From Tubulanus polymorphus (lineage: Eukaryota > Nemertea > Palaeonemertea > Tubulaniformes > Tubulanidae): a stretch of DNA of 64,000 nt. Positions 4,780 through 8,925 of the stretch are shown one piece after another (position 1 is the first letter of the stretch; each line of letters opens with the position of its first letter). The notes under the pieces are model-generated. The model was not told the origin of the DNA and searched no databases. It saw only the letters and a list, made by a program, of their open reading frames with translations. The stretch covers positions 7,295,001-7,359,000 of the forward strand of contig NC_134028.1 in assembly GCF_964204645.1 (NCBI RefSeq), in the 5' to 3' direction. A program made the translations under genes and the position numbers.

Positions 4780-5045
4780 CCTTTGCCAATTACTTTTATT
4801 TTTCGATCAATCCAACAACTGAAATCAAATCTGCGATTATTGCCCTTATGCGATTATTGGCCTTTTACTTTTCGACCGTCTTGGATGATCCAAAATGTTT
4901 TTAGCTATATAGATCTTGATTGATTTAAAACAGGGATCATTTGTTAACAAGCAAAGAATTCAATTTAATACGATATATAATATAAGTATAATCATGCAAA
5001 TTACGTTAGAAAACGAATGCGCATGACTTCCGCCTATTGCAAACA
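4780..5045. repeat. Upstream flank of the split tRNA, diverged duplicate of 8510-8843
   Basis: Both tRNA copies are preceded by the same landmarks in the same order: GATGATCCAAA / GAATGATCCAAA, AGCTATATA with GATCTT, then AAGTATAATCATC and CGAATGCGC. This points to an old segmental duplication carrying the tRNA gene. The second copy is longer because a MITE lies in it. Confidence 0.6.
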
Positions 5046-6998
5046 GGTAGCGTGGCCGAGCGGTCTAAGGAAGTAATAAAAGCGATCTCACTACTTAAGA
5101 ATAAAAAGGCATCTGGCATCGACGGGATAACAAATGAATTGCTAAAAGTCAACCGATATCCCTATTTAGTTAATATTTTGCAAAACCTATTCAATCTTGT
5201 TCTAAGGACTGGCCATGTACCGGATACTTGGTCGATTGGGGTGATCAAACCGATCTACAAGAACAAAGGTGATCCCGACGATCCCGATAATTACAGAGGC
5301 ATCACTCTAGTGAGCTGCCTAGGAAAACTGTTTACGAGCATATTGAATCAGAGACTATCTCTATTTTTAGATGCAAACAATATTATAAGTGAAGCCCAGG
5401 GTGGTTTCAGATCTAAATACTCGACAGTTGATCATATCTACACTCTTAAAACCATTGTTGAACTGTACCTTGGCCAGGGGAGAAGACTGTTCTGTGCGTT
5501 CGTAGATTTTAAAAAGGCATTTGATTCAATCTGTAGAGTAACTCTTTGGAAGAAACTTATTAGTAATTGTATTACAGGAAACTTCCTGAACATTATTAAA
5601 AGCATGTACGACTCTGTAAAATCGTGCGTAAAATATAATGGCAATACCTCACAATATTTCACTGCCGGCAGAGGTTTGAGACAGGGCGAAAATCTATCAC
5701 CAATCCTATTTTCACTCTATTTAAATGATATAGAGGCATTTTTCGTGGGTAATGGTAATCCAACTCTCTCATTTATAGAAAAGCTGAATTCGGACTGCGA
5801 TCATGATCTTGACACCCTGTTAAATCTATTTATTATTCTGTATGCAGATGACACAGTTATCTTAGCTGAGGATGAAAATTCACTGCAGTCGCAGCTGGAT
5901 ACTTTGTATGCATATTGTTTAGAAAACGATTTAACGGTTAATATCGATAAAACTAAAGTTTTAATTTTTGCAAGAAGTAAATGTAGGATCAAGATAGATA
6001 CAAAGTTTATGTTTGGCACAGATGAGATTGAGATCGTTGAGGACTATCTATACCTGGGAGTTAAGTTCAATTGGAATGGCAGCTTCGCCAAAGCAAAAAA
6101 ATATCTATATGACAAGGCAATGAGAGCAATGTTCTCGGTAATACAAAAAGGCAGACGCTTGAAGCTCCCGATAGATGTTTTGCTGAAACTATTCGATATG
6201 TGCGTCGCACCCGTTGCGTTATATGGTTGTGAGATATGGGGCTTTGAAAGCCTCGATTTATTAGAGAGTCTGCACTGTACGTTTTGCAAAATTATTATGA
6301 AAGTGTCAAAATATTCGCACAACCTGCAGGTATTAGCTGAACTTGGGCGGTACCCCATGAGTATCGAGGTAAAACGGAGGATGGTAAACTTTTGGCTTAA
6401 AACTGTTACCGGCAAAGATTCAAAACTTAATGCAATCCTGTACCGTATATCCCTCAATCTGTATGTACGCGAAAAACACAAGTCCCCTTGGTTATTGTAT
6501 ATAAAGAAAATATTTGACGACATTGGCTTATCTTACATATGGTTACAGCAATACACGGAAAATTATAAAACGCTCTCCAAGTACGTGAAACAAGTCCTCC
6601 GTGACCAACACGTACAAGAAATGCTTCAAAAAGTGAATGACGATCAGCAGTATGTTAATTTCAAACTATATAAGAACGATGTTAGGCTTGAAAAATATAT
6701 AACTCAACTTGACGGAAGTCTTGTGCATAGCTTATTCGAATTCAGAATTGGTTCCTATTTATTACCGGTAAATAATCGATCGAACGCTCATATAGACCGA
6801 AGTGAAAGACTGTGCCCTGCCTGTAACACCGTAGGAGATGAGCTTCACTTCATTTATGACTGCACTTTGCTAAGTGATCTGCGTGATAATTCCATCCATT
6901 TAAGTATGTCCAGAAACTTGGAAATATTAAGGAATCCTACCCCACAACTAGCTAAATTTATCCGGTTAGGTTTAAGTTTATACAAATCCCTCCAGTGA
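5037..6998 (+). CDS. LINE ORF2 fragment: reverse transcriptase with C-terminal zinc knuckle
   Basis: Open frame of about 640 LINE codons; the first dozen codons read through tRNA sequence and are not a natural start. The reverse transcriptase blocks run in order: KNKKASGIDGI, an IKPIYKNKG and YRGITL region, EAQGGFRSKYST, AFVDFKKAFDS, GLRQGENLSPILF (about residues 213-225) and the catalytic ILYADDTVIL with YADD at 269-272. A thumb region follows (VAPVALYGCEIWGF). Near the C terminus lies a Cx2Cx7Hx4C zinc knuckle (residues 593-609, CPACN...H...C), common in LINE ORF2 proteins. The apurinic-type endonuclease that normally precedes the RT is absent through 5' truncation. The protein would copy LINE RNA by target-primed reverse transcription. 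This copy cannot be autonomous as it stands. Confidence 0.9.
   Translation: MQTGSVAERSKEVIKAISLLKNKKASGIDGITNELLKVNRYPYLVNILQNLFNLVLRTGHVPDTWSIGVIKPIYKNKGDPDDPDNYRGITLVSCLGKLFTSILNQRLSLFLDANNIISEAQGGFRSKYSTVDHIYTLKTIVELYLGQGRRLFCAFVDFKKAFDSICRVTLWKKLISNCITGNFLNIIKSMYDSVKSCVKYNGNTSQYFTAGRGLRQGENLSPILFSLYLNDIEAFFVGNGNPTLSFIEKLNSDCDHDLDTLLNLFIILYADDTVILAEDENSLQSQLDTLYAYCLENDLTVNIDKTKVLIFARSKCRIKIDTKFMFGTDEIEIVEDYLYLGVKFNWNGSFAKAKKYLYDKAMRAMFSVIQKGRRLKLPIDVLLKLFDMCVAPVALYGCEIWGFESLDLLESLHCTFCKIIMKVSKYSHNLQVLAELGRYPMSIEVKRRMVNFWLKTVTGKDSKLNAILYRISLNLYVREKHKSPWLLYIKKIFDDIGLSYIWLQQYTENYKTLSKYVKQVLRDQHVQEMLQKVNDDQQYVNFKLYKNDVRLEKYITQLDGSLVHSLFEFRIGSYLLPVNNRSNAHIDRSERLCPACNTVGDELHFIYDCTLLSDLRDNSIHLSMSRNLEILRNPTPQLAKFIRLGLSLYKSLQ
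5046..5070 (+). pseudogene. tRNA-Leu(AAG), 5' half, interrupted by a LINE
   Basis: These 25 bases are identical to the first 25 bases of the intact tRNA-Leu gene at 8844. They comprise the acceptor 5' strand, the D arm and the A box. The sequence then switches to LINE. The other half lies at 7246-7305. Confidence 0.9.
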
Positions 6999-7245
6999 AT
7001 TGTGTATATACGTGTGATATATCTTGCTGTATATAATTCAATCTCTGTACTTGCTTTGTTTGTAAATAGTTTTATTACTGAAAGTTTGATTTTAAATTTT
7101 GTTAATTCCTATTTTGTTTTGTATATATGTATATAATTCTGTTCATGTTTTGTAAATTTTTATATTCCATATTTTGTATTCAATCTTGCCTCCACGTACC
7201 ATTCTTATGGTTGGAGTGAAATAAATATCTTATCTTATCTTATCT
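5071..7245 (+). mobile_element. 5'-truncated LINE (non-LTR retrotransposon) inserted in a tRNA-Leu gene
   Basis: A 2,175-base insertion whose both junctions can be read against the intact tRNA at 8844. The left junction falls after GGTCTAAGG. The right junction resumes at AGGCGCCGG, so AGG is a 3-bp duplication or microhomology. The 3' tail is a short (TTATC)n run after an AATAAA, not poly(A). The element begins inside the start of the reverse transcriptase domain, so the endonuclease part and any first ORF are missing. The remaining frame has no stops, which suggests a recent insertion. Clade not assigned. Confidence 0.88.
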
Positions 7246-7305
7246 AGGCGCCGGTTTAAGGCACCGGTCCAGCAATGGGCGTGGGTTCGAATCCCACCGC
7301 TGCCA
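7246..7305 (+). pseudogene. tRNA-Leu(AAG), 3' half, downstream of the LINE
   Basis: Sixty bases identical to positions 23-82 of the intact tRNA-Leu gene at 8844: anticodon arm with AAG, variable arm, T arm with the B box GGTTCGAATCC, and acceptor 3' strand ending in discriminator A. A T-run follows at once (ACTTTTG). The gene is broken, but its B box is intact. Confidence 0.9.
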
Positions 7306-8843: not shown

Positions 8844-8925
8844 GGTAGCGTGGCCGAGCGGTCTAAGGCGCCGGTTTAAGGCACCGGTCCAGCAATGGGC
8901 GTGGGTTCGAATCCCACCGCTGCCA
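8844..8925 (+). tRNA. tRNA-Leu (anticodon AAG)
   Basis: An 82-base cloverleaf. The acceptor pairs GGTAGCG with CGCTGCC, with discriminator A. The D arm carries the A box TGGCCGAGCGG. The anticodon stem CCGGT/ACCGG closes the loop TTAAGGC, giving anticodon AAG. There is a long class II variable arm, as expected for leucine, and a T arm with GGTTCGAATCC. No intron and no encoded CCA. It closely resembles the conserved animal tRNA-Leu-AAG. A second copy 3.8 kb upstream is split by a LINE. Confidence 0.95.

Follow-up and report, generated by a model that had tools for sequence, protein, structure and literature searches.

How a LINE comes to lie within a tRNA gene may be explained by a preference for such genes, by accident, or by attraction to some other feature of the neighbourhood. 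We consider this question for a tRNA-Leu(AAG) gene of the nemertean Tubulanus polymorphus, found split in two within a stretch of 64,000 nucleotides of contig NC_134028.1 (hereafter the window, in whose coordinates positions are given).

The interrupted gene and its LINE

The split gene (5046-7305) holds a LINE insert of 2175 bp following tRNA base 25 (Table 1). When its flanks are rejoined, counting the repeated AGG once, they contain the intact tRNA-Leu(aag) at 8844-8925 letter for letter, and ARAGORN identifies both the rejoined gene and the intact copy as tRNA-Leu(aag). The original prediction of a LINE entering the gene after base 25, with exact junctions, an AGG repeat and a (TTATC)n end, is thereby borne out, the tail comprising three TTATC units followed by a T. 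Its claims of an unbroken reverse transcriptase frame and a recent insertion stand as well: the frame is open, and since copies elsewhere in the genome are 99-100% identical to the window element, the insertion looks recent. The AGG repeat may be a target duplication or partly microhomology, the latter being considered because the base preceding the same element position in another copy (L002) is also G.

Table 1. Features of the split tRNA-Leu locus and its intact neighbour.
Position	Strand	Feature	Basis
5040..5053	+	CTCF-like site CAAACAGGTAGCGT: six bases upstream of the gene plus tRNA bases 1-8	10.86 bits
5046..5070	+	5' part of split tRNA-Leu(AAG), bases 1-25	Joined flanks contain intact copy
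5068..5070	+	AGG, left copy of 3-bp target repeat	Direct reading
5071..7245	+	5'-truncated LINE (family 1), near-identical to several other copies	
5073..6998	+	Open frame of 641 codons encoding the reverse transcriptase and a C-terminal region	RVT_1, 5.5e-31 (Pfam)
7230..7244	+	(TTATC)3 tail	Direct reading; like tails in other copies
7246..7248	+	AGG, right copy of 3-bp target repeat	Direct reading
7246..7305	+	3' part of split tRNA-Leu(AAG), including the repeated AGG	
8844..8925	+	Intact tRNA-Leu(AAG), 82 bases	ARAGORN

The window copy, the sole family-1 LINE noticed in the window, is 5'-truncated such that its endonuclease part is absent. Two other copies, L002 and L003, match one another for at least 1500 bases further upstream, and a third, L005, extends 25 bases further. 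In L002 a single frame carries both an APE-type endonuclease (Exo_endo_phos, 1.2e-8) and a reverse transcriptase (RVT_1, 2.5e-30) by Pfam, as is characteristic of APE-type LINEs. Family-1 copies are variably truncated, with many different 5' ends, and bear (TTATC)n tails; short target repeats are represented by the AGG of the window copy and, in other copies, by repeats read by eye only. A sister family (family 2) is approximately 70% identical, with a protein 72% identical over 641 residues and a (CGTAAT)n tail; the best PDB match of its protein was 8c8j, R2 and LINE-1 chains. At two different places (L014, L015) a family-2 tail directly abuts the 3' part of a family-1 element, which could reflect template jumping or a compound insertion that has moved. 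Elsewhere (G000 C10:1700002-1700461), four family-2 3' ends lie in tandem, 146 bp apart.

Flank samples

The flanks analysed below were subject to several exclusions. L093 (a duplicate of L092), L096, L097 and L109 (junction outside the piece), and L112 and L083 (no alignment) were dropped. No flank was taken from L002 or L003, from L009, L010 or L013 (the same interrupted copy as L012, or a duplicate of it), or from repeat fetches, among L042-L069, of copies already sampled. The compound loci L014 and L015 were excluded as family-1 flanks, and eight family-2 loci (L014, L022, L023, L026, L029, L030, L032 and L033) gave no flank as the 5' end lay outside the locus. L061 and L062, which share a flank region with L060, entered the consensus count of 53 flanks and were left out from the de novo search onwards. 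Four doubtful loci whose flank is element or simple repeat (L090, L110, L118 and L119) were retained as misses. Family 2 was sampled from 53 places with pattern A without pattern B, 35 of which were fetched, the rest being among the long matches or clustered. Since some targets are dispersed repeats which themselves carry a site, flanks in repeated targets were also collapsed, reducing 81 flanks to 68 contexts; L016, L018, L021 and L104, for instance, became a single context. Analysis of junction columns used 65 5' flanks following further drops.

A CTCF-like motif in the 5' flanks

On reading the 5' flanks, certain words were seen to recur (CCACCAGATGGCG, CCGCTAGGTGGCGC, CACCAGGGGGCG), and the motif they form is, we presume, the core recognised by CTCF. 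CTCF is an animal protein which anchors chromosome loops. Three tests were applied. Firstly, the consensus CTCF core CCASYAGRKGGCRS, allowing at most two mismatches, was sought in 60-bp 5' flanks. It occurred in 18 of 53, as against two of 47 3' flanks, four of 53 distal 5' flanks and a mean of 0.25 (maximum 2) over 100 shuffles; at up to three mismatches 20 5' flanks matched, all on the + strand. Secondly, a de novo motif search, blind to CTCF and covering both strands of 51 5' flanks, returned CCACCAGGTGGCGC / CCACcAGgTGGCGc, which agrees with the consensus core across 14 bases. The log-likelihood ratio of this motif was 161.0, compared with 59.1 for 45 3' flanks, 58.3 for 51 distal flanks and 49.1-58.1 for five shuffles given fewer starts; with equal starts, the values were 161.5 and, in ten shuffles, 50.1-62.0.

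Thirdly, a matrix was trained on 39 family-1 flanks, leaving out the tRNA copy, and applied at a threshold of 8 bits; its seed was the 51-flank motif, which itself included 11 of the 41 family-2 flanks. In family 2, 18 of 41 5' flanks reached the threshold, relative to none of 41 on the opposite strand, one of 38 3' flanks and a mean of 0.83 (maximum 5) in 500 shuffles, and among newly fetched family-2 flanks the proportion was 13 of 30. The in-sample figures for family 1 were 24 of 40, versus one of 40 on the opposite strand, one of 37 3' flanks and one of 40 distal flanks. Across both families, a co-oriented upstream site was thus present in 42 of 81 flanks. After collapsing, 34 of 68 contexts had a site, the opposite strand giving one of 68 and the 3' flanks two of 62 (Fisher p 4.8e-10); the site lay at a gap of 4-22 bp in 30 of the 68, and 31 of 63 unshared flanks also carried one.

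The family-1 reference element has no CTCF-like site of its own at 8 bits. Six insertions (L053, L074, L086, L094, L106 and L115) lie in what is apparently one dispersed repeat with a CTCF-like core (CCACCAGATGGCGTGA and variants). Within the window, CTCF-like sites of 18-19 bits occur at 1673 (-), 34371 (-) and 38387 (+).

Spacing, orientation and junction sequence

At a threshold of 6 bits there were 48 hits, 43 of which ended 4-22 bp before the 5' junction, with a mode at 16-17 bp (14 of 48), and the motif had one orientation only, reading toward the element. No fixed sequence was found at the cut site: within 12 bases of 65 5' and 59 3' junctions, no column exceeded 0.06 bits. On this basis we rejected target choice of the kind known for Tx1 and R1 elements, which relies on a fixed sequence at the cut. 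The loose distance, the one-sidedness and the lack of a cut-site sequence together suggest that tethering to a bound protein is a better fit than recognition by the endonuclease.

A 27-base 3' flank (GGACATTAG...) was considered as a second fixed target and rejected, being part of a repeated sequence. Seven loci carry it (L006, L014, L015, L016, L020, L021 and L104), and L018 has a variant. That this target was hit many times although its CTCF-like stretch is weak (L021, 8.2 bits; L104, 3.2 bits) counts against a preference for CTCF-type sites. The 27 bases (GGACATTAGAAACTTTCTACCTTTTGC, with small changes) follow the tails of at least three LINE families. In L006 they are followed by their own inverted copy, for which reason they may represent a DNA transposon terminus subject to repeated insertion.

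CTCF and a proposed mechanism

Both the sites and the protein appear to be present in the host. Exact core sites number 1240 in the genome, compared with 16 for the reversed pattern, and those with at most one mismatch 11,127, compared with 899. On contig 3, two neighbouring exons of a CTCF homologue are 68% and 59% identical to human finger sequences, the highest identities among the matches listed, at E-value ranks first and fifth. The two zinc-finger frames of this homologue (L121) contain 11 C2H2-like words, and it has YDF, presumably the cohesin-binding motif of vertebrate CTCF, before its fingers. The protein is reported from most bilaterians examined, and as not found in Cnidaria, Porifera or Placozoa (PMC7021899).

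We consider it quite probable, from the sequence patterns above, that the APE-type family 1 and its sister family insert preferentially just 3' of CTCF-type sites through tethering to CTCF, which the lack of a junction consensus makes the best explanation. The 3' side of the core is the side of the CTCF N-terminus, where cohesin is stopped. In the proposed course of events, CTCF on the DNA, or a partner that it retains (cohesin, for example), would serve as a tether for the element ribonucleoprotein, whose endonuclease would nick the bottom strand where distance rather than local sequence dictates. Target-primed reverse transcription (TPRT) would begin at the 3' tail and proceed toward CTCF, until the 5' end, often truncated, joined the DNA some 4-22 bp past the core, which would stay beside the insertion. 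The tRNA-Leu gene would have been hit because its first bases, with those just upstream, resemble a CTCF site, placed at the distance these elements favour. With rather less assurance, we lean towards the fuller reading: an animal LINE lineage for which CTCF (or cohesin held there) is a landing beacon, with entry 3' of the core, the site being left in place and the tRNA genes that are hit being mimics of CTCF sites.

The motif might instead be read by the protein of the element itself, CTCF being uninvolved, and sequence-specific LINE lineages do exist (PMC4640811). We regard this as improbable. The motif matches the consensus CTCF core over 14 bases in a genome with an excess of such cores, and the loose spacing and absence of a consensus at the cut are not as would be expected of such a reader. 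In the frames scanned, all outside ORF1, Pfam yields endonuclease and reverse transcriptase domains, and nothing known to bind DNA passes its cut-off.

The tRNA gene as target or mimic

A second alternative is that the insertion machinery recognises tRNA genes or the factors bound there, as would a LINE directed to tRNA genes or to Pol III. The window copy lies inside such a gene, and the original prediction raised the prospect of a tRNA-targeting family. A census of 3' junctions does not uphold it. Among 31 distinct 3' flanks from 70 loci, judged by eye, the window copy alone has a tRNA gene, the other 30 not being recognisable as such. A further 15 loci gave 14 alignments; in a single case, L080, the element is followed by sequence resembling the 3' half of a tRNA, which ARAGORN calls tRNA-Leu(aag) at one of 88 tested joins. 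The same program detected no intact tRNA gene across loci L001-L121, and of 19 tRNA-Leu-like places genome-wide, that of the window is the only one split. Most copies are thus neither in tRNA genes nor at a set distance from them. The suggestion that the element is possibly site-specific survives in part: a CTCF-like motif, which the tRNA gene helps to form, recurs on the 5' side, and it is as a shared target that the tRNA gene fails.

B-box-like words keep a minor link to Pol III in view. They occur in four of 39 family-1 3' flanks (L001, L008, L037 and L080, the window copy included), exceeding the mean of 0.57 and the maximum of 3 in 300 shuffle trials. This excess is soft, given that the window copy was picked for its tRNA and that L008 and L037 share a similar repeat. 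It nonetheless makes recognition of tRNA genes or Pol III somewhat likelier, and tethering to CTCF slightly less so, than they would otherwise be. Three of the four cases (L001, L008 and L080) have a 5' CTCF-like site of at least 6 bits as well, and taken together we judge tRNA or Pol III targeting to be very unlikely. In L008 and L037 the B-box-like words lie downstream of the LINE tail within the similar repeat (..TTACTGA.ACTGATTCA..), which may be tRNA-derived.

Rather, to judge from the following, the tRNA gene seems to imitate a CTCF site by accident. The site CAAACAGGTAGCGT ends 17 bp before the insertion, at the modal gap. It is a variant of moderate score, one of 12 sites of at least 10 bits in the window; such a score has a frequency of 9.4e-5 per base over 149,690 positions, so that over the 19 positions of gap 4-22 approximately 0.002 sites as good would be expected on the + strand. 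Its GGTAGCG variant also occurs in L111 (gap 17) and L070 (gap 14), and L080 has CCAGTAGGTGTCGT at gap 16. The 5' end of the intact tRNA gene makes a weaker site, CAGTCAGGTAGCGT, of 8.7 bits.

Access, survival and chance

CTCF sites are flanked by accessible DNA, and any LINE might enter the open chromatin of CTCF-bound regions passively. Insertions would then be expected on both sides, yet at 8 bits 42 of 81 flanks have a co-oriented upstream site and one of 81 has it on the opposite strand; being one-sided, the motif is better accounted for by tethering than by open chromatin. A control LINE, family 4 (34% identical over 283 residues), had no site of at least 8 bits in the last 90 bp of its flanks, a small sample of six only, with five copies at most 86% identical to the query (Fisher p 0.027 versus 42 of 81). 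That the preference is confined to families 1 and 2 is weakly indicated by this comparison, and passive access seems to us highly improbable.

Natural copies have passed selection, and part of the pattern could therefore reflect survival. The fixed side and distance oppose survival as its cause. Under the tethering model, the predicted sites would be occupied by CTCF, and contact with that protein, rather than survival after insertion, would give rise to the pattern.

LINEs without strict target choice are common and half of the contexts (34 of 68) lack a recognisable site at 8 bits, but that this LINE has no preference and landed in a tRNA gene by chance, the fallback of the original prediction, is scarcely credible given the excess, single orientation and spacing of the motif in two families, and a site at the tRNA copy expected some 0.002 times.

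Significance and relation to known systems

Should tethering to CTCF be confirmed, the germ-line positions of CTCF in an invertebrate could be read from these insertions, and LINEs would be seen to be placed systematically at the sites of a loop-anchoring protein. A TPRT machine whose cut is guided by a protein and loose in sequence would, in addition, offer a useful model of LINE site choice. In the open-licence literature, a scope excluding bioRxiv, we found no LINE that uses CTCF for insertion. Several known systems are nevertheless related.

Retroelements have been linked to CTCF sites in mammals, where B2 and other retrotransposons spread them (PMC3368268). Those elements carry the site internally, whereas family 1, lacking one of its own at 8 bits, lands beside sites that already exist. 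Target choice by LINEs is likewise established: target-specific APE-type LINEs have been assigned to the Tx1 and R1 clades, and the tRNA-specific NeSL-1_TV and LIN15_SM are tied to groups with a restriction-like endonuclease (PMC4640811). Elements of the Tx1 and R1 kind are described as entering a single sequence within a multicopy gene or repeat, unlike the families described here, in which the cut has no consensus and it is a neighbouring motif that recurs. TRE5-A of Dictyostelium is also a non-LTR element, and is proposed to locate a host complex and integrate at a set distance, approximately 47 bp upstream of tRNA genes (PMC5391098); the complexes it is thought to find are those of Pol III, in contrast to the CTCF-type motif found here.

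A parallel in logic is Tf1 of fission yeast, the insertions of which cluster at positions -9 and +19 relative to the Sap1 motif (PMC5741268). As in that system, the LINEs described here favour a particular spacing and flank relative to a host protein's DNA motif, and a candidate tether, the CTCF homologue, is present in the host. Tf1 is, however, an LTR element with an integrase, it resides in a yeast, and its partner is Sap1 rather than CTCF; furthermore, the role of Sap1 is founded on experiments and that of CTCF, here, on sequence. Tethering to a host protein with sequence specificity is known already from Tf1 and Sap1.
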